Of a stretch of 64,000 bases of DNA, positions 15,397-54,103 are shown one piece after another. A program made the translations under genes and the position numbers. Under the pieces are notes generated by a model that saw only the letters and a list, made by a program, of their open reading frames with translations, was not told the origin of the DNA and searched no databases. Numbering within the stretch: position 1 is the stretch's first letter; every line of letters begins with the position of its first letter. This DNA comes from Physcia stellaris. Lineage: Eukaryota > Ascomycota > Lecanoromycetes > Caliciales > Physciaceae. The stretch is from positions 366,500 to 430,499 of the forward strand of contig JABSSW010000042.1 in NCBI GenBank assembly GCA_018902385.1. Direction: 5' to 3'.

Positions 15397-15560
15397 GAAA
15401 ATCGACTGATTCGTTCGACGAATCGTTAGCGCAGAATTTTAAATTTCATTTAATTCATTTTTTGATCTTCGATCTCTTTTTTTCGAATACATTTTCAAAA
15501 CATATTCAAGATGACATCAACTGAGAAGTAAGTCATCGATATTTCATTTTTTCGATGAAG

Positions 15561-17280
15561 AATTCATTGCGAATACATTATTAATAAATTTAATCGCGTT
15601 AAATACGAAAAATACAAAAAACGTTGTTTCGTTTGATTTTTTTTAGAATTTGATGTAAATTTTTTCATTTTTTTCATTTCATTTTATCATAATGTATTGA
15701 TAATGTATTCAAAATGCATTATTGATATGTTTTGATCATGCACGAAATTTTTGAAAATATATTGATAATATATTTTCAATATATTATTGACAAATCGTAT
15801 GACGATTGTATTTTTTTTTGATTTTTTTCAAATTTTCGTAATTGTTTTTGAATTCATTAATAATGTATTTTCAATATATTATTCATTTATCAAATGATTT
15901 GTCGAATTTTTTTTTTTTTGAAATTACTTTTGAATATATTGTTAATATGTTTTAAAATAACGATATTTTCGTTTTGTATTCAGATCAAATGTTTTGCATT
16001 GTCAATATCGACAAATTGTTCGATTTTTTCGATTTTTTCAACAATTCGATAAATAATTTTTAAAATGTTTGAAATTGTTTTTCAATATATTATCAATGAA
16101 TTAATAACATATTGTCAAATAAAGCAATTTTGATTATATTGAAAACTTGAAAAATTATATTCAAAAACATTTCAAAAATCAAATTATTTTCGTTGAAAAA
16201 AAAATTGTACGTCGTGAAATTTTTTTGATTGAAAAACGCGACGCGACAAATGATAAAATATTTAAAAAATTCATTTTTAATTTATATTTAATATATTAAC
16301 AATACATTAACGTTTTTCATTTGCATGATAATTATCAAAAAAATTCACGACAAAAAAAAATCAATTCAAAAAAATACGATCGTTGAATCGATCAAAAAAA
16401 CGACAAACAACGTTCGTAAAATCAAAACGCATCGTTCAAAAATTTTTATCAAAAAAATCAAAAATCACGTCAATGTGAATAATATATTTCGAATGTATTT
16501 CAAATATATTTTTGAGTTGTCGAATAATAAAATTCGTTTTTTTTTTCAAAATATATTGAAAATATATTTTGTTCTTTGTATTTTTTGTCATGATAATCAT
16601 TTGTTAATATATTCGAAATACATTAAATTAATTTCACGATCGCAAAAAAATTCATTGATTGAAAACGTAAATGCAACAATTGCGTTGAAATTAAAAATCA
16701 AAATTCGAATTGTTTTTTAATGTATTTGAAATACATTAACAATTTATTAATTTGTTCGATTTTGAAATTACGCAAATTCGAATGTATATATTGAAACAAT
16801 TTTATCGACAACGACAATGATATTTTCGATGATTTCGACGAGAAATTTATTGTGAAATTTGAAATTTCAAAGAAATCGATTGTGATTGTACAATTTCAAC
16901 GAGAAATTCGAGCATTTTTCGAATGAAAATGAAAAACTTTGATTACGATAATGAAATCGCGAACAACAATGATGAAATTTTCGACAATAATTTTTAATCA
17001 ATGTCGAAACAAATTTTTAATGCATTTTTAATGCATTAAAAATTATTCGATATAATAGATTGATTAAAATTCGAATAACAAACAATGCATTCAAAATGCA
17101 TTGAGAATATATTATTGATTGAGCATGACTCTCAGACTCAAAACATGATTCTCGTTCTTAATTTATTCGTAATATATTTTTTATGTTCGCGCCTGACTTA
17201 TGAATATATCACGAAAACGTATTTCATATCAATTATTTTTAAAAATAAATTGATAATATATTATTAATATATTGTCGTGA
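15561..17280. repeat. Dispersed arrays of 11-bp AATRYATTNNN units, left flank
   Basis: Short arrays of two to four 11-nt units, each an 8-nt palindromic core AATRYATT plus three variable bases, recur every 60-250 bp. Units read exactly 11 nt apart at 15561/15572/15583, 15691/15702/15713/15724 and 15756/15767/15778; similar arrays follow near 15860, 15930, 16080, 16280, 16480, 16550, 16605, 16720, 17020, 17085 and 17240. Between them the DNA is Lys/Ile/Phe-rich in any frame. A possible short first exon with a GTAAGT donor lies at 15510-15528 (ATGACATCAACTGAGAA before it). Confidence 0.75.
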
Positions 17281-17405
17281 TATTGTGTGAAATTGAAAAC
17301 ATAAAAAGTTTTTTTTCGTTTAATTCGAAAAAATAAAAAATTAATGTCAATAAACAATACAATTTGAATTTTATAAAATAAACGAATATTAAAAATTTAT
17401 AATTA

Positions 17406-17725
17406 TGTAAAACTCGTATTAGAAATAGTATAGTCTAATGAATTATTGACATCAGAGATGTATAGCTTGAAATATAATATATTGATTTATTAATCGCTAC
17501 AAAACAGATTACGTTTTGCAATTGCTTTTTATTTGCATTTTATTTATTCAATCGTACGAATTCGATCGACTTCGATTGAAAATATGAATTTGTTGAATTT
17601 ATCGTTGATCGAGTTGTAAAATGATTGAAATTGATTTTTTTCGAAATCATTCGAACTTCGATAATCGAATTGTTTGACGAGATGCGAATCGCATTTTCGA
17701 AAATTTTGAATTTTTATTTTTTACA
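17406..17725 (-). repeat. 3' LTR of gypsy-1
   Basis: 320 bp, TG..CA ends within an inverted TGTAAA/TTTACA terminus. Pairs with 23708-24025. Differences from its partner are nearly all transitions (see findings). Confidence 0.95.
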
Positions 17726-19269
17726 TACGTTTTTTTTTAAACATCGAAATTTCTTGAAATCAATATGCTAACAGATTGACGTATTTTGTTTGTTTTGACG
17801 TGTTTTGTTTGTTTTGATTTTGCATTGATTTGAAAAATCATTATGATCGTGATTTTCGCATTTCGAAATATTTTTGTTCGAATTCAATAGTCAGTCTGCG
17901 TTAAAAACTTGAAAGAACATTTTCTTGAATGACTCAAAAAAAACATAATTTGATGAATCAATTGCTTGCTGCTTTCATGATCGAGTGTTTGATTTCGTAC
18001 AATTCACAATTTTCGATATAATGATTGACAGTTGATTTGTTGACAGAAAATTTTGAATTCGAACATTTTTTCATTTTTTCATTTCGTTATTTCGAATATC
18101 AACATCGATATCAAGAAAAAATGTGCTAACGCGATAGACGTTCATTAGTCGCGATCGCATTGATATTCAAATTTCGAAATTTTTTTTTATTTTATTTCAC
18201 ATTTTTATTCAACGACTCATCGTTCGATCAAATCGAATAACAATTTTTGAAAATGTTTTTGACACAATTCAACTTTTCATGCGTCGTAAATTCTAGACAA
18301 TAAATAACACACAAAGTTTTGAAAACGAAAATGTGTTAACATGCAATAAATATTTCAATTCATTTTTTCGTGATTTTCGATGATTTGTTTTTTTATTGAC
18401 ATCAAATTTTTTTGAATTTTCGTTGTGAAATTGTCGCAAAGTTTTTCGAAAATGTTTGATAAACGATGCAAATTTTCAAATCGCGTTTTCATAGTTTTTT
18501 CATTTTATCAAATAGTAAAAATCGAATTCGCTGTAAAATTTGTCTGAAATCTCATTTGTTTTGAAGATTTTGTTGTTCTTAATGATTTCGATTTCATAAA
18601 ATTTCTTCGTGATTTTCATTTTTATGTTCTCGTCGAGTTCAATATCTTCAACTTGATACGAAAATTCAAAAAAATGTGACGTATGTTTTTTCTTTTTTTA
18701 ACATTGAATTTTTCTAAAAAGAAACGTGAAAGACGTCGTGAATGCGTCAACGTTTGAATAAATTTAAACGATAAATTTGATTTTTTATAATTTCTAAAAT
18801 TTGAAATGAATCAAAGAATTTTCATTTCAACTTTTTGTTTCGTTTAATTTTGATGTTTTTATCGTTCAAATTCACGTAATTTTCGACGTTGTATGACATT
18901 GATTTCGTACGTTCGTTTTTGTACATCGTTTGTTGTTGTTATGTCACGAATAAATTGTTTTTCAATATTCGAAATAATTCAATTAAATGTTCAACGTGTT
19001 TTTTTGCGAATTTGAATTTAATTTTTTTGTTTCATGTTTTTTCGAAAAACATGCGAAACGAATATTCAAACATGATTTCGAACGAAAAAATATTTGTGAA
19101 TGCGTGTTTGTTGTTATTGTAAACGAATTCGATCATGAACAATAATTCTATTCAATCATTTTGTTCGAAATTGACAAAAACGCGAAAAAATTGTTTCATG
19201 ACGTTGTTCATTCGCTCGATTTGTTCATCGATTTAAAAATGAAAAACGATTGACAATTTACGTTTGATT

Positions 19270-20028
19270 TTAAAACGTAACACAATGCATCGTTGTATTT
19301 GAATGTGAAAATGAAATTTTTGTCGATAACGATTGACGAAAAAAATCGTGAAATCGAATGATTTCGCGAAATAAAATTTCGATCAAATTTTTTGCGAAAA
19401 TCGTTTTAATTATTGATATGTAATGAATTATTTTCGTTAAACGATTCACAATCATTAAAATCGAATCGTAAATCGTTTCATTTCACGTTTTATTTGAAAA
19501 AAATTCTGTCACGAAATTCATGAAAAAATCAATTCATTTAAATTCAAAAATTGAAAAAAAAAATTCGTCGTATAATTTGTGTCGTGAAATTTTGTTTCGT
19601 TTGCAAACGACGCATGTTTTACAATGTTTTTTGATTTGTTGTCGCATTTCAAAAATTTCGATAAAATTTTGATTCGATCAATAATATTTTCGACGTATCA
19701 ATTTTAACGTTCGTTCGATGTCGAAATAATCAACGAACGAATTATCGTGATTGACACGAATAACGTTTTCACGCAAATTTTTTGAAATGTAAACGACGTC
19801 GTCGTAATACAAAAATTCATTTTTGTGTTGTCAATGATTTGTTTCTGTTTTCGAAATAATTAATTCTCGACATATTTCAGAAACGAATTGATTTTTATCG
19901 ATCAAATCTCGAACGAAATTCAACAATGAAAATGTTGATTCGTCGTTATATGTCGTTTTTTCTCGTAAAACAATTTGTATTCGAATTTTATGCATTGCGC
20001 ATTCAAATACAATCGTTGATTTTAACAC
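19270..20028 (-). pseudogene. gypsy-1 integrase remnant
   Basis: The frame at 19270-19455 begins MIVNRLTKIIHYISI, matching the integrase core start (VVDRLTKMAHFIP type), followed by LIEILFREIIRFHDF. The frame at 19831-20028 is the stretch between RNase H and integrase. Frames are discontinuous with stops between them. Catalytic integrity is lost. Confidence 0.8.
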
Positions 20029-20092
20029 AAAAATTTTTCATTTTATGAGTGTCACGTTTGATTTTTGCTCAATCGAATGTTTCGAATTTTTT

Positions 20093-20190
20093 GAATTTTT
20101 TGAATCGAATGTTTTCGAAACAACGTTGATTGAAATTCGATTTCGTTTTGAATTTTTTGAATCAAATGTTTTTGAAACAACGTTGATTGA
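20093..20190. repeat. Internal 41-bp direct repeat in gypsy-1
   Basis: Two copies at 20093-20133 and 20150-20190, both starting gaattttttgaatc, 57 bp apart with two transitions. On the minus strand they encode the repeated peptide INVVSKTFDSKNSK between RNase H and integrase. Confidence 0.75.
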
Positions 20191-20848
20191 TTCGATATTT
20201 TTTGAATCATTTAAATGCGATCGACGTTTCATGTTATGTATCGCATTCATGAATCGTCTCATGACATACATCGCATTCATGATTTTGATCGCATTTATTC
20301 GCATTTTTTCGAAATGTTTCGAATTTGCGATCAATGATTTTGCAATTGTTTCAAAATTTGACGATTGTTTTCGACGTTTTTTTCAATAATCATCATGTGA
20401 TCAAATCGTTTTGAAAATTCGTCAACAAAATTCTTGTTATCGAAACGATAATCGATTAAGAAATTATATCGATTTAACTTTTGAATTCATCGAATTTGAC
20501 GTGACGACAATTTAATTGTGATTATAAATTGTTTCAGATTGCGATGATCAATAAAAACAAAAATTTGTTTTTGCGTTTTCGAAATAGTGTTTTCATTGTT
20601 TGAACGAAATCACAATAATCAACAATTTTTTGTCATGAATTTCGTAATTGCATTCGATCGAAATCATTTTGCGTGAAAAATACGCAACAAAATGTCAATG
20701 ATTTTCGTCGTTTTGTTGACATAAAATGATTTCGATGATTTTGTCGAATACGTCGATTTCGATTCGAATAACACGCTCGAAATCGAAATGACGTAAAATT
20801 GATGTTTCGATAAATGTTTTGCGAAATCGTTTGAAAATTTTCAACGTT

Positions 20849-21031
20849 TCATTGATCAAAAAATGTGAATATTCGAAAATTTGTTACGATTTCGATTTTG
20901 ATTTCGTTTGCGTTTACGAGTATTTTTCGTAATTTTGCGATTTTTTTTAGCATAGCGATCAGAAATTCAACAATTTTACTGAAATGTTTAATAAATCGTC
21001 GATAAAAATTAACGATGTCGAAAAATTGCAT
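20849..21031 (-). pseudogene. gypsy-1 RT/RNase H connection remnant
   Basis: The frame carries FFDIVNFYRRFIKHFSKIV, the conserved NFYRRFI motif that follows the gypsy reverse transcriptase palm, with several mutation-type substitutions. Confidence 0.85.
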
Positions 21032-21400
21032 GATGTCGAAAACGTTACGAAATACAAATCATTGTTGAATAATTTCGATTTTTTTGTTTTGCATTCGTAT
21101 TTTTTGAAAAAACAACGAATTCAAAGAAATTTATCTCGTCAACGAATCATTTGCATTTTTCAAGAACAATATATAGTTTATTTTTTTAAAACGATCAAAA
21201 ATGCATTTGACATCGTCGACATGAATTTCGACGTTCATCGAATAAATTACTATATCGTTCAAATATATTATGACGTTAATATCGAGACGAATTGTCAAAA
21301 TTCGATTGATAAAATTTTGAAACGTCGTCGAAACGTTAATGAAATCGAAAAGAAATACGTTATATTCGAAATGATCATATCGAATACGAAAAATTGTTTT

Positions 21401-21817
21401 TCATTCGTTTTCATGTTTGATACGCAATCGATGATAAGCAGCAATCAAATCGATATTGATATATTTGACGATTTTGTTGAATTTATTTAGATTTTCATCG
21501 ATTAACGATAAAAAATATCTATTTTTTATCGTGAAAACATTAAGATTTCTGTAATTCACACATAGACGTAAATTATCGTTTTTTTTAACGAACAAAATGA
21601 ACGTTTCTGCAGAAAATTGTGAAAATCGAATGAAATCGTTAACTAAATGTTTTTCGATGTAAGCACGTAATATTCGAAACTCATTTTCAAATAAAAAGTA
21701 AATTGATTCATGCGACGATTTCTTGTTTTTTTTTAAATCAATAGCATGATCGTTTGAGTCATGATTCGATAATTCGTAAATTTTATTTTCGCTATCGAGT
21801 TTTTCATACGTTTTCAA
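21401..21817 (-). pseudogene. gypsy-1 reverse transcriptase remnant
   Basis: Motifs visible: DHAIDLKKNKKSSHESIYFL, YIEKHLVNDFIRFSQF, LRLCVNYRNLNVFTIKNRYF and INIDLIAAYHRLRIK. The substitutions Pro-to-Phe/Ser and Gly/Asp-to-Asn are those expected from C-to-T on either strand. Confidence 0.9.
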
Positions 21818-22131
21818 AATATCGAAAAGCGTGATTTTGACATCGAGTTTTTTTTTTCATTTCAATCAAAACAAATTCTATTTGAATTCGTTTTGAAACG
21901 TGCATTTCATACATGTCGAATTATTTGTCAATATACACTCGTACGAACATGAAATACGTTTCAATTTCGTTATCGATGACGTTTATGATCAATTGTTTTG
22001 ATTCGATGTTTTCGATACGATTCGTCGTGAAAATGAAATGTTTTTTTGCAACGTCAAATTTTGATATTGTCGTCGTCTCAATTCATTTTGATTTTCGAAA
22101 ATTGTATTCAAAGCATGTTTAACGTTAAATT

Positions 22132-22320
22132 TCAATTCAAATTCACGATCAGAAACGATTTCTCGAAAAAACGACTGATTTTTTTGACGTTTGACATTTC
22201 GAATTGTACGAAATAGACGTTATATGTTTTCAAACGATGATTGTCAATTGTTATTGCATCACAATCTAGAGCTTCGAAACGACGAAAATCGAGTTTTTTC
22301 GCATAGACATGATTTATCAA
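22132..22320 (-). pseudogene. gypsy-1 aspartic protease region remnant
   Basis: The frame MINHVYAKKLDFRRFEALD matches the segment just after the D-S/T-G-A motif of fungal gypsy proteases (xLINHAYAKKLG). The catalytic triad itself is upstream of the open frame and not readable. Confidence 0.6.
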
Positions 22321-22651
22321 ATTAATTTTCGTTTTTGTATCGAGTATTGTTTTCGATTCGTTTCAAATTTGATTTTTGCTTTGTATGTTAATTTTGATTT
22401 TAACGCATTTACGAATCACAAGTTCTTTAAATTTTTTGCGTCGTTTTCTTTTTTTGTTAACATGATTTTTGCTCATGTTTGAAAAGAACGACGTATCGAA
22501 ATCAAAGTTCGAAAATTTCTTTTTTTTAGCGATTTGAACGAAAATCATCAAATCGATTAGTTTTTTGATTGTTCAAGAACTTGATCAGCGAAAATGATTT
22601 TGTTTTTTTTGTTTGTGCAAATTTCGATTTGATGATTTGATTTGTCACAAT

Positions 22652-23266
22652 TTATACAATTATTTTTGTTTTGAATTTTTTTGAATTCGCTGACGAATCA
22701 ACGATACATTCGAGTATTTTTCGATTTGATTGATTCGTGATTCGAATTGATTTTGTTAATATTTTTGATTTTTTTATTTTTGAATTTCGCAGTTTTGAAT
22801 TTCTCGTTTTCGTTTTCAAAGTTGTCAATATCGAACGAGATTTTACGCTTTTTGAAATTTTTGAATTTTTTTTCAAAATTTGAGCGTTTTTCATACGCTT
22901 GAGTCGTTCAAACAGTTTCGTCTTTGTGAAAATTTTCTTTTTTTTAAGAAGCATGCAGCGAAATTTCAAACGTAATTCGTCACGAAAATCGTTGAATTTC
23001 ATTGTTTTCGTGAATTTGAATTCGAATTTCAATTCAGCAAACATATTTATTCGTTCGACGTTGTAATTTTTAATCGATTGATTGTGATTTTGTTTGTGTT
23101 TGCGATATTTTTCAAAAGATTTTGTTGCAACGTGATTGCTCGCTCGATGTCGTTTTTCAAAAATTTTTGAATTCGATTCAAATGTATTGTTTGTTTGAAT
23201 GAAAATCGATTTTTGCGTTTCAAAATTTGTTCGCATTGCTATTTGACTTAAAATAAATATCAACAT
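22652..23266 (-). pseudogene. gypsy-1 gag remnant
   Basis: 204-residue open frame directly inside the 5' LTR, highly charged and Lys/Ser-rich, in the gag position. Assignment is by position; no zinc knuckle is preserved. Confidence 0.55.
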
Positions 23267-23707
23267 ATGCGATTTTGATTAAATTCGAAAATTGAATCAT
23301 GTGATTCACGTTGTTTTGCGTGAATTGATTTTTCATTTGTTTGCAATATCTTTTTCACTTTTTGTAATTTTTTTCTTCATATTGATTCGATGTCGTTTCG
23401 ATGATTTTCATGACGAAAAATTTTCAAACAGAATCAAAAACAAAAGTAAATGAAATAAAAACAAATGAAATAAAAATTGCAAATTTCGAACGTTCGACAA
23501 TTCGAACTTTGAGTTTGATTTTTTTTTTGTGATTTTTTTCGATCTGTTGTTTGTAATAAATCAATCAAAAAGATAAATCAGCATTTTCGACAAATTCAGA
23601 AAACAAATCATTATCAAAGTTCGACATGATGTATGCGAGACAACAGAACTGTGTTTTGTTAAATATACACGAATGACATCATTCTGAAATATGATAACGA
23701 TTAGAAT

Positions 23708-24025
23708 GTAAAACTCGTATTAGAAATAATATAATTTAATGAATTATTGACATCAAAAATGTATAGTTTGAAATGTAATATATTGATTTATTAATCGTTG
23801 CAAAACAAATTACGTTTTGCAATTACTTTTTATTTGCATTTTATTTATTCAATCGTACGAATTCGATCGATTTCGACTGAAAATTTGAATTTGTTGAGTT
23901 TATCGTTGATCGAATTGTAAAATAATTGAAATTGATTTTTTCGAAATCATTCGAATTTCGATAATCGAATTGTTTGACGAGATGCGAGTCGCATTTTCGA
24001 AAATTCTGAATTTTTATTTTTTACA
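23708..24025 (-). repeat. 5' LTR of gypsy-1
   Basis: 318 bp partner of 17406-17725, followed by the AATTA target duplication. Confidence 0.95.
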
Positions 24026-24030
24026 AATTA

Positions 24031-25304
24031 CAAAAAATTACGAATTCAAAATTCAAAATATGCAAAAAAAATGTTACGAACATGTTCGACAAATAAATTT
24101 AATAAATAATTAATATGATAAATAAAACATTTAACAAATATATCGAAATCAACGAATTAAATTTCAATTTTTTCAATTTTTTCAAAATTAACGTAGTTCG
24201 AAATTTAATATTCGCGTATTATTTACAATTTCAACATTTTGTATTTGTTTCAAATTTGTTTTTGAAAATTTTTGTTTAATCAATCAATCAATATAATCAA
24301 TTCAAACATGTTTTGTGATAAAAATTATTACGAATCGAATTTCAATTATCAAAAATTTAAATTCAACAAATAAACATCATAAATGTTGTTTAAATAAACG
24401 TGTTTGTTAATTAATTAAACGAAAACAATAAATAAATAAATAAAAATAAAAAAAATGATAAAATTGAAAATAATATACAAATATGAAAAATTTAAATCAC
24501 ATTAAATTCGAAATTCATTGTGTAAAATATTCAAAATTCAAATAAAAAAATATTACGAATCGAATTTCGATCAAATTATATTAAACAATTCGATTATCAA
24601 AACGAAATAATCATTGAAACGATTAATTTAATTATGTTAACAATTAATTTTTGATAAAATTCAATTATGTATTTTTTTACATTTTTAATAAATCAAATTT
24701 AACATTTAAAAATCATAATTTTTATTGTTATAAATTTAATATAAACAAAAAATTCAACGATAAATTTCATAATTGAAATTATATATTGTGTTACAATAAA
24801 TTTGATATTTTAATGAAAAACAATAACGTAATAATTGTTTATTGAAACGTTATATATAAACGATTTTGAATTTTTTAATTCTAAATTAATTGATTATTAA
24901 TATATTAGAAAATTTATATAAATTGACTTCACAACATTCAATTTATTTTTAATATATAAATTTTTTTAAATCGAATTTCTTTCAATTATTCAATGCATAA
25001 AAGATTTGTAATATATTTAATATATATTACAAATCGAAAAGATTTTCGCTATTGTTTGAAATTTGATTTTTTAACAACGTCAATTTCAATTTTTCACGTT
25101 CATTTTTCAACTTTAATTTTTTCAATTTAGTTTGTTTCAATTCAAATTTTACTTTTCGTTTTTTTAAATTCAAATTTGTTTGTTGTGACAAAACATTTGA
25201 ATTTATAAAAATTTGAAAAACAATTTATTGAAAAGCAAACGATGAACGCGAATTGCAAAATATTAAAAAATATTAAATATTGATTATTAATGTTTTTTAA
25301 TAAT
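24031..25304. other. AT-rich DNA without recognisable gene
   Basis: About 1.3 kb right of gypsy-1, almost only A/T with short homopolymers. It probably belongs to the element interrupted by gypsy-1. No 11-bp array as clear as in the neighbouring parts, and no domain. Confidence 0.5.
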
Positions 25305-28300
25305 TTATTTTTCGATTGTTTTTTTCGCGTTTGTTTTTTCACGTTCAAATGATTGCGAATTTGATCGTTTTGACGATTTTGACGATAATCGTAAATTTTC
25401 TGACGAAATAAATCGTGATAAAATATTTTCGATTGATTCAACAATATTTGAAAAAATTGCAAAATCGCGTAAACGTTTTTTCGCTAAAAATAAATTAATA
25501 ATATATTTTGAATGTTTTGACAATGCATTTTACATATCGATTTTTCGTTATTTTTCAAAAAATTTTCAAACATTGTTTTCGATCGATAATTATGTTGAAT
25601 ATCATGTTGTTCGAACATTTCATGTTGAAAAACATCTCGTCGATCAATAGATTTCTCACTACGAGATTATAAGATTAAAAATATATCAAAAATATATTAA
25701 ACATGTATTATTTACTTCTTTATTGTTTTTAGCAGAGTCAATCGCCGTCTTAATGCGTTGCTCTTATGATGAGTCGTTTCTACTGCATTAATGTGTTTTT
25801 TTATTCGAACAAAAATCGTTTTATTTATAAATGTGTATTCGATATTGTAGTTTGCAGCAATAACATCGATTTCTTTGTGTTTGCATCATTCTTGAATGTC
25901 AAAATTGTGAGATCAATAGTTTGAGAAGAAATGTGTTAATAATAGATTAATGACATATTAATAACATATTAAAAACATATTGATTTACTTTTGATAGCTT
26001 GTAATAACTCGTGATATTCTCGTTCCGTCTGACAATCCAATAATTGTTGAAAAAACGGATATTGAATTATCGTCATTTCGATAGTACTCAAGATTCGAGC
26101 GATTTCTCGAAGAAAATGAATACGACAAAACATTATTGTCGATTTCATGTGTTCGTTTGCAAATCGATCGTGAATTCAATCGATCGACGCGAGATAGTTT
26201 TCTAATCTTGATTTAAATTAATAATGAATTTAAATGAATTGAAAATAAATTTTTAATAAATATTTAATACATATCGTACATCTGTTCTTTGTTCATATTC
26301 ATCACGACTTCGTACAAGCTTGTTTCATGAATATGTTGTCATTCAACATTTTCATTTGTTATTTGCTTTATTAAAGCGAACACATGTTTGAACATTAATG
26401 TGTAATAATATGAATTTTGTCGATTCATATAAATTTCACACAAAATTACATTTAAAAGAAATTAATAATTTGTTGAAAATACATTTTGAATTTATTAATT
26501 ATTTTTTTTTGTCGTTCGTCGTAATATGCAAATATCATTTCGTTAAATCAAAAAATTTTTGATTCTTTTAAATGACATGTCAATTTTCAAAGATTCAAGC
26601 GTAAGTAAGATTTGTGCTTGTTCTTTGAAAAAGCATATCAACATGGCGAAATCATGTTCAACAAAAATCTCTTGAACATACTAAAGAATAAATTAATAAT
26701 ATATTTATAACACATTAATAATATTTACTTTTTGATCATTGACATTTTTCGCTTTAGAATAGACATAATGTCGAACGGCTTCAATATTCTGTTCAAATGA
26801 ATAATAGAACATTTGATACTTTTTTAAAAGTAATTTAATTTTATCCGTATTAGTCAAAGACGCATGAGTTTCAACTAAAGTTGAAATTTGACGTTTCGTA
26901 CAAAATTTCTGTACGATAGAATTGATCAAGAAATGATTTGTAAAAGATTAAAAATATATTTTAAAAATATTAACAATGTTTACTTAGACTCAAGTTGGAG
27001 TCATTGATTCTTTGAATCAGATTGTAAATGAAAGTCGTCAAATCTTTAGATGTTTTTGACGAATCTGGCGATGAATGTGTGTGTTTATCAATTGACATAA
27101 ACACAACATAAAAACATGTTCAATTTTTGAACAAAAAAAAATAAAAAACAACGTCGCAAATTTTTAATTGTAATGTTTCGCGATCAAAAACATGATCGAA
27201 ATTTAATAAAATATTAATAATTCATTAAAAATGTTTTATCAATATATTTATTTATTACAAATTAATTGTCTTGTTTCGTTTTTTTAATTCATAACAATTT
27301 TCAATGTCAATTGAACGATTAAACGTTAATTGACGTAAAATGTCAATTTTCGCGTTTAATCGATTTGAAAACGATTGAAAAAATAATCATTTTGTTTTCG
27401 ATAATTGTGACATCGAAAATGATATTGAAAAATTTGAAATATTGTTTATAAAATTATTAATAATATATTAAAATCTTATTGTATAAAATTTATCGCATGT
27501 TTTTGAATGAATATAAATATGCACGAATTTTGAAAATTGTCGCATGTTTTATTTTGAAAAAAACGTTTCTGAATCGCACTGAATCAGTTAAAGAATTAAG
27601 TTAATAAAATATTAGAAATATATTTTTAATTCATTTATTTTATTGTCTCACGTTTCACTGTTCTCTCGGTACGTTCACGACGAATTCGTTGAATAACATT
27701 TCAAATCGAATAATCCAGACGATAATATTTCATGGTGTTTATAGATGCATTTAAATGTTCACATATTTTGAAATCAGTACAACGATATTCAATATGTGTG
27801 CATGTTATATCATCAAGTATTGAACAATATGCGTTGCGAGAGAGACGAGTTTTAACATAGCAAAATTGAAGCTAAATATATTATTAAATCATTTTGAATT
27901 CGTTTAAAATATATTAAACTTACATTGTCGATAATCTTGATATTCATCGAATCTTGTTCTCGTCAATCGATTACATAGGTCGTTTTCTTCTCACTGAAAA
28001 AGAGAAATTCGAGTAATTTCAAAGTATAAATAATTTCTTGCATCGTGTAAATTACAACGCTCGAATTGATATCGATTGATACTTCAAAGACTTCAAGATT
28101 CTATAATACTTTTAAAATATATTAAAAATATTTTATTACGAAGTAAATCCGAATGCAAATTTATTTCTCATCTCGTTATCATTATTTGATTTTCTATTCA
28201 CGAGTTTCGGTCTTGAATGAGCGATAACGATATTTTTCAAAATCTTCAATAGAAAATATATTATTAATATGTTGATAATATATAATATGACATTATATCA

Positions 28301-28495
28301 AGTATATCTCATAACTGTTCTTTTTCGTGAATATTCGTTCGTCGTGAATTTTGCGATTTTCGAAATCGAATATCATAAAAAAAATTTAAAAAAGATTAAT
28401 TGTTAATAAATTATTAACAAATTAACAATATATTAAACACATATTTTTTTTATGTCACTGTTCATTGTGTTTATTTTAAATGATGAAAAATTTTG
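25305..28495 (-). pseudogene. Intron-rich degraded gene, family not recognised
   Basis: Read on the minus strand this part alternates between exon-like stretches of about 200 nt and AT-rich GT..AG intervals of about 50 nt. Clear introns are 27872-27923 (GTAAGT..TTTAG) and 26681-26728 (GTAAAT..TTTAG); others are near 28105-28150, 26210-26275 and 25945-25990. Exon segments stay open over 50-70 codons: one reads LVETHASLTNTDKIKLLLKK, one CRIHFLREIARILSTIEMT, one CTDFKICEHLNASINTMKYY with several cysteines. Occasional TGA codons sit where TGG is likely. A possible first exon starts at the ATG ending at 28495. The 3' end near 25305 is a Ser/Lys-rich tail. It is less mutated than gypsy-1. It could be the transposase of the TIR element, but I do not recognise the family. 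Confidence 0.45.
25670..28450. repeat. Dispersed arrays of 11-bp AATRYATTNNN units, right flank
   Basis: Same unit as in the left flank. Best array: 25931-25990 (five units on the minus strand, AATATGTTTTT, AATATGTTATT, AATATGTCATT, AATCTATTATT, AACACATTTCT). Others at 25680, 26685-26728, 26945, 27880-27920, 28110-28150, 28260 and 28390-28450. Several lie exactly inside GT..AG intervals of the degraded gene. Confidence 0.75.
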
Positions 28496-28678
28496 AAAAA
28501 CAAAAACGTCAACTGATTATATATGAAGATCAGATTATGCGCTAAATCGTCGATCATTTTTCGAAAAAGCGGAAGTCAGCCGATTTTCTCTGCGGGTCGG
28601 ACGACTAAGGGGCTAGAGGTCAGTTGACCTGCATCCTGACACCTATCTACTCCGTACGCCAAATCATTGCTACTCTAA

Positions 28679-28823
28679 TGTAGAACTAGGTGGCCAATCA
28701 GGGGCCGCCAAGAGCTTAGTAACTAGTGCGCACTCCAATGACATTGGATGCTAGAAACCATGTAAATTAGCACTAGATAGAACATCATGCAATCAATGAT
28801 TTACGACTCCATGCAGTCTGACA
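28679..28823 (+). repeat. 5' LTR of copia element
   Basis: 145 bp, TG..CA ends. It shares the segment ccgccaagagcttagt through cagtctgaca with the 3' LTR. Confidence 0.95.
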
Positions 28824-28835
28824 GTTATGAGCCCG
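28824..28835 (+). promoter_or_regulatory. Primer-binding site matching the anticodon arm of initiator tRNA-Met
   Basis: GTTATGAGCCCG directly follows the 5' LTR. Its complement, GGGCTCATAAC, is the anticodon stem-loop (CAT anticodon) of eukaryotic initiator tRNA-Met. Copia and Ty5 are known to prime from a cleaved half of this tRNA, so the same is inferred here. Confidence 0.8.
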
Positions 28836-29011
28836 GATCACGCTTAATTGTTGCATCCAATACGTGATCTAATTGACTATTGAAACCTCCAGCATTCGAT
28901 TGCTTCGGCAGGCTAACGAGAGGTCAGAACACCGCGAGAACACTCCTGTGTTTACACCCTCCTACAACAACAACCAAGAACCCCTTCCTACTTATCCGCC
29001 CGTCCAGCACG

Positions 29012-32000
29012 ATGACGGATACGAAGCGAGAGCTCAAGCTGAGCTCCTCCAAGGACTGGGACGCGTGGCTTTCAGTCGTACGAGCTAAGGCCACCGGATA
29101 CTCGATTTGGGATCTCATCGACCCATCCAAAGATACTCGGCCAACGGGCAAATTTGAGCCCGTAGAGCCCAATCTCGATGCACAACAGGGTGTGGATTTC
29201 ACCGAAAAGCATGCCCGATACAAGATCGCGTTGTCGAAATACAAGAAGGAGCTTCAAGACTGGAAGGAGCAGAAGGACTCCATGGCAAAGATAATCGATC
29301 ACATCTATAGTACAACAACGGTTACAAACCTCATCTTTATTCAGAGTGTTGAGATTCATCCATGGACCGTTTTACGTGCTCTCAAAGCACGTCTTGCACC
29401 CACCGATTCGGCTAGAAGCTTGGAGCTGGAGCAAGAGTACAACCGCTTGATCAAGGGACCATCGAATCGTCAGAGCATCGATGTCTGGATAGACGACTAT
29501 CTGAAGATGCTGGCTCTCGCTAAGCAGGCGAAGATTGCTGAGGTCACCGATAGCAAACGAGCGTATCGTGACTTTCTACAAGCAATCGACAAGACGGCAT
29601 CTACCTTCGCTGAAGTATATCTACTCCAGCAAGACAACGTGACGAACCACGAAACACAGCTTCTCACTCTCATCGAAACCTTCCGCCATCACATGCGCTT
29701 GAAGGAAGCTAGGAGAGGGAAAGGAACGATATCCAACTCGGCATTCGCAGCTGACGAAAGCAAGGATACAAACGGTCGAAACTCTTCTGGCACCTCGTCA
29801 TTTCGAGGTCAGAATCAGTCTCGAGATCCCTGCATTTGCGGAAAGAAGCATTTCTACGGCGATTGCTTCTACCTCAACGAGAACATACGTCCAGATGATT
29901 TCAAACTGAAGCCAGAAATCGTGGCTAAGATAGACGAAGCAAAGAAGAATCCAAAGAAGAGGAGGCAAATAGAACAGAGCATCAAGCGGGCTGACGAAAA
30001 ACGTCAGAAGAAGGACGATAATAACAAGAGCACAGAAGCCGAAGTAGGGTCCTTCGCCGCCATCCACGTCAATGCCATAGGGTCGTTTACAAGCGACTCG
30101 TCCTCGTCAAGTTACTCCCTTCGTTCGTCATGGCTTATGGATCACGGCTTCGGCATCCACGTGGCCAACAGCACAATGAAACAACGCTTCCAAAAGGAGC
30201 GGGATTGCACAGACGGATCGAAAGTTATGTCCGGCATGGGACCACTTCCTATTCTGGCATATGGCCGGATGCGTATCGACGTCGATACACCCACAGGAAA
30301 GAAGCCAATGGAGCTTCTAAACGTCAGTTACGTACCAGACTTCATGGTCAATATCGTCGCGGGAAGCATTCTCGCAGACAAAGGACTGCACTTTGATACA
30401 GCCCATGGGCATCTGCACAGAAACGGTGCACCGATCGTCCGCGTACCACGAGTAGGAGCACATTACGTCCTCGAAGATAATAGGTCTGAAGGGGTGGGCA
30501 CCTTCGCAGCCACCGTGCGACAAGGATCTACTCTAGAATGGCACCAGCTTCTCGCCCATGCGAATAATGACGCCATACAGCATTTACAAGAAGCAGCTGA
30601 AGGGGTGGAGCTCACCAACAAGGATAAGGTGCCACTAACTAACAAATGCGAAGAGTGTGCCCTCTCCAAAGCACATCGAATTGTATCCAAATCCCCTGTA
30701 AAGTCAGAAACTTCGGACAAGCCGTTCTATCGTATTACATACGATCTCATCGATATGACAACGGCCTTGAACAAGCACAAGTGGATATCACACGTGGCAT
30801 GCTCCGAAACAGGCTTCCACATGATATACACGCACGAGAGCAAAGGACAGGCCACGGAGGTGCTTATTCGGGCCATCCATACAATCGAAACCAGATACAA
30901 CGGCAAGGTCGTATTTGTACGTTCTGACGGCGAACGTGCGTTAGGCACCCAATGGGGTAATTACTGCGCACTCAAGGGCATTACATCTGAGCCCTCGGCC
31001 GTTGATACTCCAGCACAGAACGGCCACAGCGAACGACTAGGTGGCATACTGTTGACCAAGTCACGAGCAATGAGACTCGAAGCAAATCTACCTGTTTACC
31101 TATGGCCGTGGGTCAACGAGACGGCTGGTTACATAATGAACCGTACACCCTCCAAGAAGCATGGATGGAAGACACCGTTCGAAATGGTTACCGGCAAGAA
31201 GCCGAATCTTGCTCACATCGTTCAATATGGAGCAAAAGCATACCCCTTGGATAAGGATATTCCAAAGAAGGAAAAGATGAGGGCCAAAGCACACATCGGC
31301 TTCCTTGTAGGGTATGACAGCACCAACATCTTCCTAATTTGGATTCCTAGTCAACGAAAGGTTATACGTACACGTGATGTCACATTCAACGAAGACTCAC
31401 GTTACCGTCCTAACGAATTAGACCTAGCCCAGCTCGTCAACGAGCCCTTCCTGACTAACGATACGCTTGACATACCGCAGAGCGATTTCACGAGAATAGT
31501 GGACATCGAATCAGACAGCGACGAAGATGTATGGGAGTTAGCATCTACAGGGTCCATTACCGATCGCGATGCAAAGAAATCTCACAAGCAAGTAACTGAG
31601 GACGATTCTGGACCAGGATATTTACCCTCACCTGCTCCATCTTCGTCAAGGGGTGAGGACACGTCAAATACGCCTGATCCTTCGTATCCTTCGTCACCTG
31701 CCGCTACAGAAACCGCTACAGAAAATCCCTCGTCACCTGCCGTTGCAGAAACAGTGGAGGAACTACCCCCGCCTGCACCGCCGTTGAAAGAGAAGAAACC
31801 GAAGCATTGGGCGAAAACAACGATTGACGAGGTCAATATTCAGCCTGAAGGGTTCACTCGTATTCGCAAACCAAATCCGCTTCGAGGCTTCAGTCATTAC
31901 ACCGCCCTAGAGGATGCGTCCGCAGGAGGAATGCGTTCATTCTATGGAGCATTCATGACTTCAATGACGAAGGAAAAGAGACCGCATCGTGACGATCTCC

Positions 32001-33612
32001 TCGCCGAATCACGTTTCTATCATCAGATGCTCAAGCATCCTGAGGCCGCCGGATTCCTACGGGCCATTGACGTGGAGATCAAGGCATTACAGTCAAAGCA
32101 GACCTGGAAGGAGGTTCCATGGCATCATGCCAAGAACGCAGGAAAGACTTCTATACCTACCACGTGGGTATTCAAATACAAATTCGACAATGAGGGATAC
32201 TTGGTAAAGCATAAGGCTAGATTGTGTGCCCGAGGAGACCTCCAACAAACCGAGCAAGATGTCTATGCTGCTACACTAGCTATTAGAATCTTCCGAGCAC
32301 TAATGGCCATAGTAACCGCCTTCGGTCTTAATACTCGTCAATATGACGCGGTCAATGCATTCGCTAACAGCGATATCGATGAACCAATCTATTGTAAGCC
32401 GCCTGACGGCTGGAAGGGGACAAGCAATGTGCTATTCCTTCTATCGAAAGCACTTTATGGCCTGAAACAGTCTCCAGCATTATGGTATCGACATCTGTCG
32501 GCTACTCTCAACAATCTAGGTCTGGAGCAGGTGCTCGGCATCGAGTGTCTATTCATCAATGACTACATGATTCTATTCTTCTTCGTGGACGATATAGCAG
32601 TCATGTATTATCCACAGTACTCCAAACAAGTTGACGCCTTCGAAAACAAGCTCTTCGAAGCATATGAGATGAGAAACATCGGCGAGATCGAATGGTTTCT
32701 CAATATTCGCATTACACGCGATAGGGAGCAACAAACAACGTCGTTTTGTCAGGACAGCTACATCGACAAGCTCATCAGCAAGTTCAACATTGATATGGCC
32801 AAGAAAGGGCCAGGATCGCCTATACTCACTCATATTCCGATGGTAAAGAATGAGGGTAATGCTACTCCCCAGGAAATCCATATGTATCAGCAGAAGGTCG
32901 GCTCAGTCAACTTCGCTGCAACAACAACTCGGCCAGATGTAGCCGCTGCAGCTTCGTTACTATCTGAATATCTTACGAATCCATCTAAACACCATGCGGA
33001 GCAAGCGACTCGAACGCTAGAATATCTAGCACACACCAAATACTACGCCATTGTCTACAAAGGTCAGGCAGGTCATGAAACCACCATCTTCCTAGCCTCG
33101 TCAGATGCGTCATTCGCAAACGATCTAGACACTCGTCAGAGCTCAAATGGATACTGCTTCATGCTCTTCGACGGTCTCATCGATTGGAAGGCCACAAAGC
33201 AGAAGACAGTCACAACTAGTTCCACCGAGGCCGAGTTGTTGGCCATGTCAATGACGGCCAACACCAAGATGTGGTGGGACCGTTTCTTTGAATCAATACA
33301 AATGAACATGGGGGACCCACTCACATCCAATGCGATAATCGCCAGACTATACGTGCGTTTACTATGCCAGCGGCCAAACTAACCACTAAGTTACGTCATG
33401 TCGATATACATCGTCACTGGTTACGTCAGGAGGTTCAGAAGGGCACGATTAACATTCAATGGACTCCTACAGCGAGTATTCTGGCCGACGGTTTCACCAA
33501 GGCCCTACCGCCTCAGAAGCAGAAGGCGTTCGTGAAGCTGATTGGTCTAGAGTCTATTTCGGTACCAGGTTCGAAGGAGGACGACGAATCCGGCCAATCA
33601 GAGGCCGAATAG
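29012..33612 (+). CDS. Copia gag-pol polyprotein, one frame break before the end of RNase H
   Basis: The ATG at 29012 starts MTDTKRELKLSSSKDWDAWL, a copia gag N-terminus. In order: gag; a short knuckle CICGKKHFYGDC; protease with WLMDHGFGIHVANST at 30130 (Asp-His-Gly where Asp-Ser/Thr-Gly is usual); GAG-pre-integrase (EWHQLLAHANN, CEECALSK); integrase with Asp in ITYDLIDM, Asp in VRSDGERA and Glu in NGHSERLGG; RT with KHKARLCARGD, YDAVNAFANSDIDEPIYC, ALYGLKQSPALWY and FVDD at 32580-32591; RNase H with SDASFANDLDTRQSSNGYC and SSTEAELLA. The frame ends early at 33382, while the missing end (RHVDIHRHWLRQEV) is open to 33612 in another frame. One base short at the GGGGG run 33310-33314 accounts for it, and 4,601 nt is one less than a multiple of three. 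Confidence 0.93.
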
Positions 33613-33672
33613 GCCGCATCGAAAAATAGGTAAAACACCAAGGGTAGGATGAAATATCAGATATTTCCTCCT

Positions 33673-33681
33673 AAAGGGGTG
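33673..33681 (+). promoter_or_regulatory. Polypurine tract of copia element
   Basis: AAAGGGGTG immediately precedes the 3' LTR at 33682, the usual place for plus-strand priming. Confidence 0.75.
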
Positions 33682-33834
33682 TGTAGAACTGGGTGCCTGG
33701 GCAACCAATTAGAGGCCGCCAAGAGCTTAGTCATTAGTGCGCACTCCAATGACATTAGATGCTAGAAACCATGTAAATTAGCACTCGATAGAACAACATG
33801 CAATCAATGATTTACGACTCCATGCAGTCTGACA
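33682..33834 (+). repeat. 3' LTR of copia element
   Basis: 153 bp, followed by target duplication TCTAA at 33835-33839. Confidence 0.95.
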
Positions 33835-47667: not shown

Positions 47668-47750
47668 TCATCCAACGTGTACTTAATCGACCGTCCGATC
47701 TCGTAAATTTCTTCATGCATTTTCTATTTACAAAATCATCTTTTTGCTTT
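47668..47750 (+). repeat. Left terminal direct repeat of outer element
   Basis: Starts tcatccaacgtgtacttaat. It matches 62350-62433 except for nine C-to-T changes in the right copy and one transversion. Similarity fades after 47750. Confidence 0.7.
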
Positions 47751-48679
47751 GATTTTATTTTGACGATCACGATGCGATTCATGTAATTTTGAAATGCATC
47801 ACGTTGTTTTTTAATTCGTCATTGCATCGTTTTATCGATCATATTTTGTGATTACGAGCATTTCATTTTATCGTCATCAATCATCGCATTTCGTTTCATT
47901 TATTTGAAGTTTGTCAATTGCGACGTATAGCAATTTGCTTTGTTTTTTCTTTTACTTCAGCTCGATAATTTCTGTCTGACTATTGATTTTGCTACAATTA
48001 CAACTACAGTCGATCTTCTAATTTGCTGTCGTCACTACAACACGTCGTTTACATTTTATCACATTTGAATTCAGCAATCATCACGTTGAAATATCACTTT
48101 TTTTTTATTCATTTAGTTTCGTCGAAATCATTCAAATACGAATTGTCAACGAGTTTCACATCAAATTCGACAAATAGTTTTTCAAAAACTGATTCGTCGT
48201 CATTCGAAAACAATTTCACTTTGTCATTCAATTTCGAAAAATACGATTCAACGTTCAATACAGTGACAAATAATCAAAGTCTTTTGTTTTATTTGAAAAA
48301 ATTACACGTCATTTGTCATTTTACAAAGACGTTTTTTTGATTTATCGAATTTTTTTTTATCATCATTTTCGTTTGTCGCATATTCATTTTTCGATAATTT
48401 CATATCAATCTCAATAAAATCATCAATTATTGATACATTTAACACGTCAATTATCATGACGTATCAACTAATTGATTTTACGTTCGTTTTTGTGACATTT
48501 TTTTTGATCAAAACAACATATCAACGTCACGATGATTCAAAAAATTCGAACACGAAATGTTTGATTACAAAACAATTGCTATTGATGCAATTTTTGTTGA
48601 CAAATATTTTGAATCAATGAACATGTTGTTTATCGACGACGTTGCAAACTGATTTGAAAATCATTTTGATGCAATACGT

Positions 48680-49231
48680 TTGTTCAACGATTCAATATTT
48701 ATTCAATTCACAATAATTTCATTCAAATCATTATTGTGTGAACGTTTTTTTAACAAAATCGTCGAAATCATTTTTGTATCATTCGACGTGAAATTGATCG
48801 AATTACGTCAACGTGATGATGAATTTTTAATTGATTATTACAAGCGAATTATCAATTTGATGCAACGAATAAATGTTAAAAATAAATTTGTTTTCGTTGT
48901 TACAATTATTTTTATTTTGTTTGAATTTGTTATGTTGAATATTATATTGCGTGCGTTCATTAAAGACTTGTTGAATTTTGAAATTCGAAAAAAAACTATT
49001 AAAAACATGATTTCGTCAAATCGATCATTACGTACGATATATCAATTAATTGAAAAAATTCGTCGTATCAATATTGAAATCAAAAAGTTTTTTGATGAGA
49101 AATTTAAATACGATGAATTATCATTTTACAAAAATTTAATACAGCGCAATTTATTTCGTCATCAAATAAAAATTTTGTTTACGAAATATCACGTCGTCAA
49201 GTTACAAACACAGAAACAAGAATTTCAATAA
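48680..49231 (+). pseudogene. Outer element gag remnant
   Basis: 183-codon frame with a retrotransposon gag pattern: LRQRDDEFLIDYYKRIINLM, then LRAFIKDLLNFEIRKKTI and SLRTIYQLIEKIRRINIEIK. Such xLRQxxDES(L/V)xxYYxRxxxLM sequences are typical of gypsy gag. Degraded by substitutions rather than frame loss here. Confidence 0.75.
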
Positions 49232-51845
49232 TCAATTTATGAAAATTTCAACATTGTTACAGTTTCGATTCAGTTTCAGATATTTGTGATGAATACATCA
49301 TTATCAATTTCAATTGCTTTTCGTCAATCATTAACTGTTAATTTCAATCGAATCAATGAAACGTCCAAATCGTCACAATCAACACGAAAACAAATTGATA
49401 AATATCAATTTATTGTCAAAAATTTATTTGATCGTATTATTTTTAAAAATTTTTACATCAATGATATTAAGTTATGAATTATGAATAAAAACGATCGATT
49501 ATGCATTAAGTGTGATCATTTGAATCACATATTCAAAAAATGTAATGACGATGTGTTATCGTCGTGAAAACAATCGTATTTACGTGAAATAATGTTCGAT
49601 CAATCAACACAAATAAATTTCGCACAAATTGATTTTGAAAATTTCGATGACAACGTTCGATTTTATGATAATTATTTTATTTTTGATTTTTCAATTACAT
49701 TTTTTGACAAAATTATTTCGTTTACATCAACAATTTTGATGAATGATGTTTTAAACAATTCGATTAATCATTCTATTCACGTCGAAATAATTGATTTGTT
49801 TATGCGTTTACATGTTGATGATGTCAATGCTGTCGATGCATTGTATGACGAAAAATTTGAAATTAACAAGCGTTCACATGTTGAAAAAAACTCGAATCGA
49901 AAAAATCAACATTTAATCAATTTGAACGATTGACATCGATTTTTTTTTTTTTAATCAGCAATTTTTTACACAATCGATAATTGATCAACAATATCAATTT
50001 CAAATTGCTGTCGATTTCAAATTTAAAAAAAACAAAAAAATCAAAAAAAAAGTTCGAATCACAATCAATAATTGACATGTTAAACGACGCATCGAACAAA
50101 TACGATTCAATTATATTAATACGACAAATATTTCAAAACAACAAGATTGATTTAATTTGAATGAATTTCATAACGTGATTTTTCACAATGTGTCGAAAGT
50201 TCAAACGTTTTTGTACACGCGTAATTAAAAAACGTGAATTTAAAAAAATAATTGATCAATCAACACAACAATTCAATTCGATGATATTTCAATATATTTT
50301 TCAATTTATTTCAACATATCAAATGTTTGTTTTTCAAATTTTTCAACAAGTTTTTCAATCAATACAGCAAACGTATGTATTTATGTCGTCGATTCAGTTT
50401 GATCAAAATCAATTTTCACAAATGTTTTCACAATTTGTTAATCAGCAATTTTTCGATACAATTTTCAATGTTACAACATCACAACAAAATGTCGAACGAC
50501 ACACGCGCTTTTTGAATGCTATGATAAAATTCGATAAAATTTTCAAAATATCGTGCATTATAATCAAATCAAATGATACAATCGTTTTGTTGAGCAATCG
50601 TTGCATTCAAACAAATCAAAATTTTGACATGAATGTCATATTTGTTGACATGATACGTCATTTCAATTTTCAATTACATTCGTTTGAAAAAATTGATTTC
50701 AAGAATTTATTTATGCGTACAGTCGATCATAGAAAAATCATATTACATCATTATGTCTGATTACGCGTAAATATTGAAAAAATAATTCGAAACATACGTT
50801 GTTTTGTAATTTCAAAACTATTTCAAATCATGATTTTCGATGAGACAGAACATCTTAATCTAATATTGAAATTATTTTGATTTTATTTCGTGAACGTTTT
50901 AATATTCATTCGTCAATCAAAAATTATGATTGATGACGTGAATCAAAACGAAACAATCAAAATTGTCGTTGAATCGAAATTAATGTTTTGTAATAATCAT
51001 AATTTATTAATGTATTCAAAGTCAATCATGACAACGTTTAACAATAAACAAAAAAGACATTTACAATTTAAAGTCGAAAAAGTCAATTTTTTCGACTCTT
51101 TCGACTCAAATGACAATGATGAAAAAAATGATTTATTTGATATCGAAAACTCAATACATTCATTTTATTCAATGCAACTTTTTCATTAAATTCTCAATAT
51201 GACGTTAAATTGTTTGAACATTCATTTTTTCAATTTAATCAAAATGTTCGTTTCGAGATTCGTGTAATTATTGCGTTTCAACAAATTATTAACTCGAAAT
51301 TCAATATTACATCATTGACATTAATCAAAAAACGTGATGTTATTCGCTTCATTGATCGATTTGATTATTCAATTTCAATTTTCAATGTATTCGACATTTT
51401 TAATTATTTTGTCACGTTCGATAAATTTCGAATGAATTCAAATAAACAAATCAATTCGTTTTCAATTCGATTTATTAATCGATCGTTCATAGATTCTAAC
51501 ATATCAAAAAATGTATTAAAAAAATGAATTGTTTTTGTCGAACTAATTTTAGATTCGTTTATATTTAATGAAACAAATAAACACAAAATGTTGTGTTTGT
51601 TTTATCATTATCGTCATTTTAATGACATTGATTTGACGAATTTATCATGCATCGATTTATTTATTCACAAAATTCGAATCAAGTTTGACACTAAGTCAAT
51701 TAACATTATTATTCAAAAACGTTGATCAATTCATATCGAATGATGATTACGCAAAATCATTATTGATGACATGAAAAATGAAATTTACGAATTTATCGAA
51801 TCAACAAACGATCGTTTGTCACGTTGAAACGTCAAAACTGTTGTA

Positions 51846-53589: not shown

Positions 53590-54060
53590 CATAATCGAAT
53601 GTATCGATTGTGTTAAACATGATTCAATTACTCGATCACAATCATTTAATTCAGTTTTTGTGATTTGTTCGTTTCAATTTTGTGACATGAATTTCATTGA
53701 GTCGCTCGACGAAACTATCAATGATTGTCGATACATATTAATGATTGTGTGCTATTTCAATCGATTCATTGTATTTTTCGTTTGCAAAATCAACAACGTT
53801 GAAAACGTATTGTGATGTTTACGTTTATTTTTCGCAATGTATCGACGATTTTACGTTTTTTATGTGAATTCAAATCAGCATTTCAACAATTCGATATTAC
53901 GAAACTTTTTCGAGACGAGAACACAATTATTGAATACAATTCGTCTGATTCATTCAAATTTACAAACATGATAAAATTATTCAACAAATTTTTTGAAAAA
54001 ATGTTACGCAAAAATCATTTCGACGTGAATTGAAATCATCGCATTTCAATTGTTGCTAAA
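53590..54060 (+). pseudogene. Outer element integrase core remnant
   Basis: Read through stops, the plus strand gives CVKHDSITRSQSF, FIESLDETINDCRYILMIVC, FNRFIVFFVCKINNVENVL and FFAMYRRFYVFYVNSNQHFN. This is the integrase core, with the first Asp lost in the DMNF region and the second at the VNSNQHF (VDSGQHF-like) position changed to Asn. Not functional. Confidence 0.75.
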
Positions 54061-54103
54061 TTTGTGAACAATCGCATCATTGATTATTTTGAAATCAATT
54101 TCA

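Follow-up and report, generated by a model that had tools for sequence, protein, structure and literature searches.

In Neurospora crassa, repeat-induced point mutation (RIP) changes C:G to T:A on both strands, hits transposons while sparing genes, and operates in a genome with RID-like and DIM-2-like genes. The order of its targets is reported as CpA>CpT>CpG>CpC (PMC5496416). Signatures of CpT beside CpA are known (PMC4352252; PMC10998396): in Botrytis cinerea, Sclerotinia sclerotiorum and Magnaporthe oryzae, CpT is among the preferred contexts and is accompanied by CpA (PMC4352252, Amselem et al. 2015). Monilinia combines classical CpA-to-TpA change with CpC-to-TpT double changes (PMC8959702). 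In Trichoderma reesei, C-to-T changes arise in duplicated alleles through a cross, with CpA and CpG about equal, then CpT>CpC, the sign between the two groups being lost in the text of the source (PMC5496416). Basidiomycetes show a RIP-like mutation at CpG/TpCpG (PMC4014442), and in Ascobolus a RID/Masc1-family methyltransferase, Masc1, acts on duplications by reversible methylation, a process known as methylation induced premeiotically (MIP; PMC7862722). A 2025 kingdom-wide survey concluded that RIP-like defences share a preference for CpA (PMC12543289). All these papers are represented here by parts of their text. We describe a 64,000-nucleotide stretch of the ascomycete Physcia stellaris (positions 366,500 to 430,499 of contig JABSSW010000042.1; hereafter the window), part of a 44-Mb assembly of 147 contigs, in which transposon DNA, including the retroelement gypsy-1, has lost cytosines that precede a pyrimidine (CpY), probably through a RIP-like process.

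The comparison with these systems reveals likeness in form and difference in target. The features listed above for N. crassa are all found here, but the order is CpC>CpT>>CpA, CpG, and the CpA preference, typical of RIP though not strictly defining it, is lacking; moreover, the TpA/ApT ratio, which rises in N. crassa, here falls from 0.67-0.71 in gene blocks to 0.52 and 0.45 in the two AT-rich blocks of the window. Botrytis, Sclerotinia and Magnaporthe share the use of CpT, but CpA goes with it in those fungi, and CpC occurs nowhere in the text of that paper, whereas here CpC leads and CpA stays near background (PMC4352252). In T. reesei CpC comes last, and here it comes first (PMC5496416). 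The basidiomycete process has in common with ours a context other than CpA. In Rhizoctonia solani AG8, heterozygous single-nucleotide polymorphisms have a mean spacing of 214 bp at CpC, 370 at CpG, 422 at CpA and 491 at CpT (PMC4014442, Table 2); the accompanying text stresses CpG despite the shortest spacing being that of CpC. These values are the nearest precedent against novelty, as far as the extract goes, but in that fungus genes and repeats are affected alike and CpT is rarest, whereas here repeats only are affected, CpT is second and CpG is at background. Ascobolus MIP differs in leaving the sequence unchanged. No report of a CpC-led, CpA-sparing RIP was found in searches on RIP context within an open-licence library, and a prior report in subscription papers (e.g. 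Clutterbuck 2011) is possible.

The signature occupies two blocks of the window:

15400..28600, no strand assigned: AT-rich block 1, depleted in CpY, with C before a purine kept; borders sharp, about 100-200 bp
47700..64000, no strand assigned: AT-rich block 2, same CpY-depleted signature, extending to the end of the window

Dinucleotides were counted on both strands and compared with expectation (observed/expected, O/E). CpC is almost absent from blocks 1 and 2 (O/E 0.05 and 0.01) and CpT strongly depleted (0.32 and 0.19), while CpA (1.24 and 1.36) and CpG (3.27 and 3.33) are kept and TpC is enriched (1.42-1.43). In block 2, C precedes C 3 times, T 287 times, A 2096 times and G 1748 times. 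An earlier note on this DNA had called for such a count against the gene blocks, in which all four CpN ratios lie within 0.88-1.07; depletion of CpY with retention of CpA and CpG proved to be confined to the AT-rich blocks. All four AT-rich probes from the window were multi-copy in the genome, three with at least 40 places each and the fourth with one further copy (94%). To judge from these probes, the signature sits in transposon DNA, not in gene blocks.

The direction of change was read from an element lying between the two blocks, which was taken as the 'before' state, the context of each base being that of the intact copy:

28694..33834, plus strand: un-mutated Ty1/copia element; its terminal repeats (130 bp) lie at 28694-28823 and 33705-33834
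28880..33382, plus strand: intact copia open reading frame of 1500 aa, RVT_2 match E 1.6e-34

A relative elsewhere in the genome, L056, is hypermutated (GC content 0.34); two sisters, L054 and L055, are GC-rich and 94.6% and 94.5% identical to the window element. Replacement of C by T in L056 affects 462 of 530 CpC (0.87) and 326 of 643 CpT (0.51), but only 34 of 685 CpA (0.05) and 28 of 610 CpG (0.05), and the reverse change, T to C, amounts to 0.7-4.7%. The sisters show C-to-T differences at 2-9% of sites whatever the context, and the upper value belongs to CpC of L055. Transitions relative to the window element number 918 in L056, 153 in L054 and 175 in L055, and transversions are alike (92, 83 and 86, respectively); since the latter are similar and the former are not, a difference in age does not explain L056, and this explanation was rejected. 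One copia family thus holds hypermutated and near-untouched, about 94% identical copies at similar transversion distance. C:G to T:A transitions are overwhelmingly the change in L056. They are spread along the entire element and fall about equally on the two strands (CpC 223 plus and 239 minus; CpT 139 and 187), with little effect of the 5' base (ACC 0.89, CCC 0.90, GCC 0.79, TCC 0.92). The window element, L054 and L055 contain open frames of 1500, 1624 and 1257 aa, respectively, and are multi-copy yet spared.

Six further copia copies, compared over about 800 bases each, were taken from near the top of 33 matches, a sample that leans to the less changed. Pooled, they had lost 434 of 450 CpC, 490 of 618 CpT, 52 of 590 CpA and 19 of 672 CpG, with ranges of 0.95-0.99, 0.58-0.88, 0.04-0.15 and 0.02-0.04, respectively. 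At the other end of the scale, a patch of L055 (element bases 131-480) shows changes at 20 of 45 CpC, 2 of 45 CpT, 1 of 39 CpA and 0 of 48 CpG; elsewhere in L055 the figures are 12/443, 10/558, 6/598 and 6/524. The patch, which covers 350 bp adjacent to the first terminal repeat on its inner side, has the appearance of one light hit. As it consists almost of CpC changes alone, CpC is the first target, and the order read from these alignments is CpC > CpT >> CpA, CpG. The earlier note had described the hypermutation as following CpT, not CpA. Its second half holds, CpA being spared; CpT, for its part, appears as the tail of the process, with CpC the first and strongest target.

That description had been drawn from gypsy-1, in block 1:

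17406..17725, minus strand: gypsy-1 long terminal repeat (LTR), 93.5% identical to 23706..24025; on a minus-strand reading of the element, its 3' LTR
23706..24025, minus strand: gypsy-1 LTR, 93.5% identical to 17406..17725; on a minus-strand reading of the element, its 5' LTR
17726..23705, minus strand: gypsy-1 interior; CpC 0, CpT 161, CpA 740, CpG 742 (both strands)
21131..21400, minus strand: piece of reverse transcriptase, RVT_1, E 2.4e-4, 21.3 bits, under the Pfam cut-off of 29.6

The minus-strand orientation is provisional, guided as it is by the one weak, sub-threshold RVT_1 match. Realignment of the two LTRs returned exactly the differences listed in the earlier note: 19 transitions, 15 at CpT/ApG and 4 at CpA/TpG, one transversion (A/T) and one 1-nt length change. 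Of 90 C-bearing sites in the pair only 20 are CpT, and the hypergeometric probability of finding at least 15 of 19 changes there is 1e-9; the CpT changes show no strand bias (7 CpT, 8 ApG). The same note had observed that C in the interior stands mostly before A or G, as the counts above bear out, and had called CpC rare; it is in fact fully absent from the interior and both LTRs, and because neither LTR contains any, the pair could show no CpC change.

The pattern extends to other copies of gypsy-1. A probe from the interior was used to search the genome, the best 40 of 398 candidate places being scored, and 20 of the 39 places other than the window were compared; with the window copy, these made 21 rows, two of them partial. 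Two usable LTRs were available in 16 of the 21 (L014, L016, L017, L019 and L031 were left out). Variable sites in these 16 pairs were 156 of 196 CpT, 60 of 501 CpA, 9 of 545 CpG and 4 of 4 CpC, so that CpA-to-TpA, which would have argued against the earlier proposal had it dominated among genome copies, is not the main change. Together the pairs show 265 transitions against 73 transversions; L032, with a second LTR that aligns badly, accounts for 36 of the transversions. Interior columns were counted where at least 12 rows were present and the next base was unvarying. All 476 CpT columns were variable, with C in the minority (mean share 0.12), as were all 4 CpC columns; in the variable CpA (361 of 602) and CpG (134 of 532) columns C kept the majority, with means of 0.82 and 0.79.

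Eighteen 3-kb stretches at preset positions were also sampled, on eighteen contigs known from gypsy-1 matches, so that the sample is not uniform. Of the 54 kilobase bins that they make up, ten have a GC content below 0.3, and the CpY signature is present in every one of these AT-rich bins; over these 10 kb, on both strands, C precedes G 1080 times, A 1152 times, T 26 times and C once. In one stretch (L053, G000:C90:24001-27000), bins with GC 0.19-0.23 have a CpG O/E of about 5 and CpA counts below those of CpG. In the oldest DNA, CpA may serve as a third target that changes slowly.

Stop codons offered an independent consequence. Among single C-to-T or G-to-A changes creating a stop, conversion of CpY can yield only TGG to TGA, because CpC on one strand reads GpG on the other, and conversion of CpA would turn CAA into TAA and CAG into TAG. 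In L056 (1494 codons compared), all 25 comparable TGG codons had become TGA, and stops had replaced 0 of 23 CAA, 1 of 33 CAG and 0 of 18 CGA; L054 and L055 had no stops in their 1492 and 1499 compared codons. A genome search with RVT_1, in which 150 of 527 candidates were scored, gave 140 matches with stops out of 150, comprising 250 TGA, 33 TAA and 3 TAG. With RVT_2 (150 of 165 candidates scored, 137 matches), stops were present in 133 (401 TGA, 101 TAA and 3 TAG), and three of the four matches free of them were the window copia element, L054 and L055. Two RVT_1 matches, G000:C5:1166521-1166997 and G000:C12:60312-60788, have identical scores, frames of more than 1000 aa and no stops; they may represent an element that moved recently and has yet to be mutated.

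The composition of the AT-rich blocks could be reproduced by a forward model in which context rules were applied to the window's own GC-rich DNA and the fit was measured by Kullback-Leibler (KL) divergence on dinucleotides. Conversion of CpY gave KL 0.008-0.017 with a probability of 0.9, the same for CpC and CpT and chosen to fit gypsy-1. Other rules fitted worse: CpT only (0.09-0.11), C before any base but G (CpH, 0.09-0.13), all C (0.10-0.16) and CpA (0.31-0.38). When the usual RIP thresholds were applied (product index, PI, above 1.15; substrate index, SI, at most 0.75; composite RIP index, CRI, above 0; PMC7882544, as excerpted), not one of the 39 kilobases counted as AT-rich by a GC content below 0.31 passed, the highest PI (TpA/ApT) being 0.69 and the lowest SI 1.11, and none of 79 GC-rich kilobases passed. 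The usual index test misses the hypermutation seen here.

The search for a RID homologue that the earlier note had proposed was carried out with the PF00145 profile, which gave four matches at three loci of the genome, all in DNA of normal composition; two are candidate RID/Masc1-like genes (L033 and L035) and one a DIM-2-like gene (L034). L034 has a frame of 1118 aa, a methylase domain of about 390 aa and an ENV motif, and is read as DIM-2-like from these features. L035 has a frame of 816 aa and an EQT motif, a type of motif that we take to mark RID. L033 carries PCQ, has EET where ENV would stand and, beyond two apparent introns whose splice sites were placed by eye, continues with GNAVPP; the RID-like genes appear intron-split. 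L033 resembles L035 (39% over 195 aa in the methylase core, 34% over 149 aa in an N-terminal stretch) more than L034 (26% over 178 aa), and the methylase domain of both is shorter than that of L034. Their assignment as RID/Masc1-like paralogues is a putative one, drawn from this mutual likeness and from domain length. No Pfam match to a BAH domain was found in any of the three, so this domain does not separate them. According to the part of Amselem et al. used here, class I RID/Masc1 domains are smaller (about 240 versus 400 aa) and found in ascomycetes, and Botrytis and Sclerotinia, both CpT-bearing, have two class I accessions each, to the extent that a flattened table can be read (PMC4352252); two would be present here as well. 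Taken as a set, the methyltransferase genes suggest a filamentous ascomycete.

As a pattern in aligned DNA, then, we have shown C-to-T change at CpY on both strands of transposon DNA, with CpC before CpT and borders of 100-200 bp. The explanation we consider quite probable is a RIP-like, methyltransferase-driven hypermutation of dispersed transposon copies with CpY specificity, as the earlier note had suggested and as the before/after copia pair, the 16 LTR pairs and the further copies support. RID/DIM-2-type methyltransferases commonly read the base 3' of their target C, and RIP is the known fungal process of this form; for these reasons we infer a pathway of that type. Its enzyme, a timing in the sexual cycle and recognition of homology or of repeats are inferred likewise. 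The actor on repeats would be a cytosine methyltransferase of the DNMT1 family, its specificity for the 3' base altered; the two RID/Masc1-like proteins and the DIM-2-like protein are the candidates. C (or 5-methylcytosine, 5mC) followed by a pyrimidine would be deaminated on both strands and then replicated into T, CpC first and CpT next; CpA would be a weak late target and CpG would stay at background. More tentatively, L033 is our first choice for a dedicated CpC/CpT mutator, performing a repeat-directed mutagenesis that would nearly invert the dinucleotide rule of RIP, possibly with CpC as a first step and CpT as a second, and could turn every transposon Trp codon into TGA.

Several findings weigh against this explanation. 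The three copia copies in the window and at L054 and L055 are almost un-mutated at about 94% identity, and such sisters would not be expected to escape an efficient RIP triggered by homology; perhaps the process works in episodes, is no longer active, or follows a guide other than homology. CpA is not wholly exempt: its changes increase in the heaviest copia copies (13/98 and 15/99), and TAA makes up 101 of the 505 RVT_2 stops, so other changes accumulate besides those at CpY. A lean to one strand is seen in the L055 patch, with CpC changed at 16 of 29 plus-strand and 4 of 16 minus-strand sites. The AT-rich bins elsewhere were picked by GC, not by repeat status, and one genome was examined throughout.

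The strand lean, and the strict C-to-T hypermutation of retroelements itself, would suit a cytidine deaminase of the AID/APOBEC type acting on reverse-transcribed complementary DNA or exposed single strands. However, it is the 3' base that sets the specificity, with little effect of the 5' base, and the strands of L056 are changed about equally; we rejected such editing on these grounds and regard it as improbable, the L055 lean being one point in its favour. An APOBEC_N search of the genome gave no match, a weak negative since control genomes gave none either. Classical CpA-first RIP driven to saturation, with just CpT differences still segregating, deserves mention because CpT-dominant alignment differences have been recorded in RIP-proficient fungi (PMC2621366, PMC7882544, in the passages used), and RIPCAL analysis of N. 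crassa Tad1 copies has CpT changes overshadowing CpA (PMC2621366). For the same reason the CpT-rich LTR pair, from which the earlier note took its clue, is not diagnostic alone; the diagnostic features are retention of CpA and loss of CpC. Saturation of a CpA-first process should leave the opposite of what is seen: CpA is retained (O/E 1.24-1.36), TpA/ApT is low (0.39-0.52), CpA is near background in the before/after pair, and the lightest patch is of CpC, not CpA. We rejected this account for its conflict with the retained CpA and give it almost no credence. Equally little belongs to a non-enzymatic or general bias, such as AT drift, damage by ultraviolet light (UV) at dipyrimidines or decay of 5mCpG. 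AT-rich, transposon-filled blocks are common in fungi, but the block borders are sharp and the sisters show little change at a transversion distance like that of L056; UV and CpG decay were rejected because the expected UV target, TpC, is enriched, and CpG, which decay would remove, has an O/E of 3.3.

Closer in kind to the methyltransferase-driven process is a succession of two enzymes, one specific for CpC (e.g. the second RID/Masc1-like protein) and one preferring CpT (e.g. DIM-2), which we hold unlikely but worth keeping in view. CpC and CpT differ in the L055 patch (Fisher P 1.2e-5), where their rate ratio is near 13 against 1.7-3.8 in heavy copies; three methyltransferase genes are present, and the portion of a 2026 review used here assigns DIM-2 a CpT preference (PMC13297926). 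Yet the ratio in the patch stems from just 2 CpT events and has a wide error, in heavy copies saturation lowers the apparent rate at CpC, and a single enzyme with two rates fits too.

Block 2 contains a second hypermutated element of LTR type:

54103..54320, no strand assigned: LTR-like repeat of 218 bp, paired with 61392..61609
61392..61609, no strand assigned: partner repeat of 218 bp, 96% identical

The two differ by 5 CpT, 2 CpA and 1 CpG changes and no transversions. Adjoining the gypsy-1 LTR, the kilobase 24001-25000 has a GC content of just 0.152 and short A-rich tandem arrays. Imperfect palindromes occur at 14720-14838 (about 120 bp, 78%), about 0.6 kb outside the border of the AT-rich block, and at 25130-25240 (111 bp, 75%). 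A weak Nudt16-like Pfam match, in a scan of five pieces (four of gypsy-1 and 57716-58690), was taken as chance, and a scan for tRNAs found none.

Near-saturating hypermutation that largely spares CpA contrasts with the CpA preference described as common to RIP-like defences in the text of the survey seen here (PMC12543289). If such genomes are commoner, index-based surveys would undercount RIP. The P. stellaris genome offers a natural contrast: CpC is hit first and CpG remains at background, a single family has both intact and mutated copies, and two RID-like paralogues are present. This contrast would make it possible to test which residues of RID/DIM-2-type methyltransferases set the specificity of RIP, and whether or not deamination is carried out by the methyltransferase itself.

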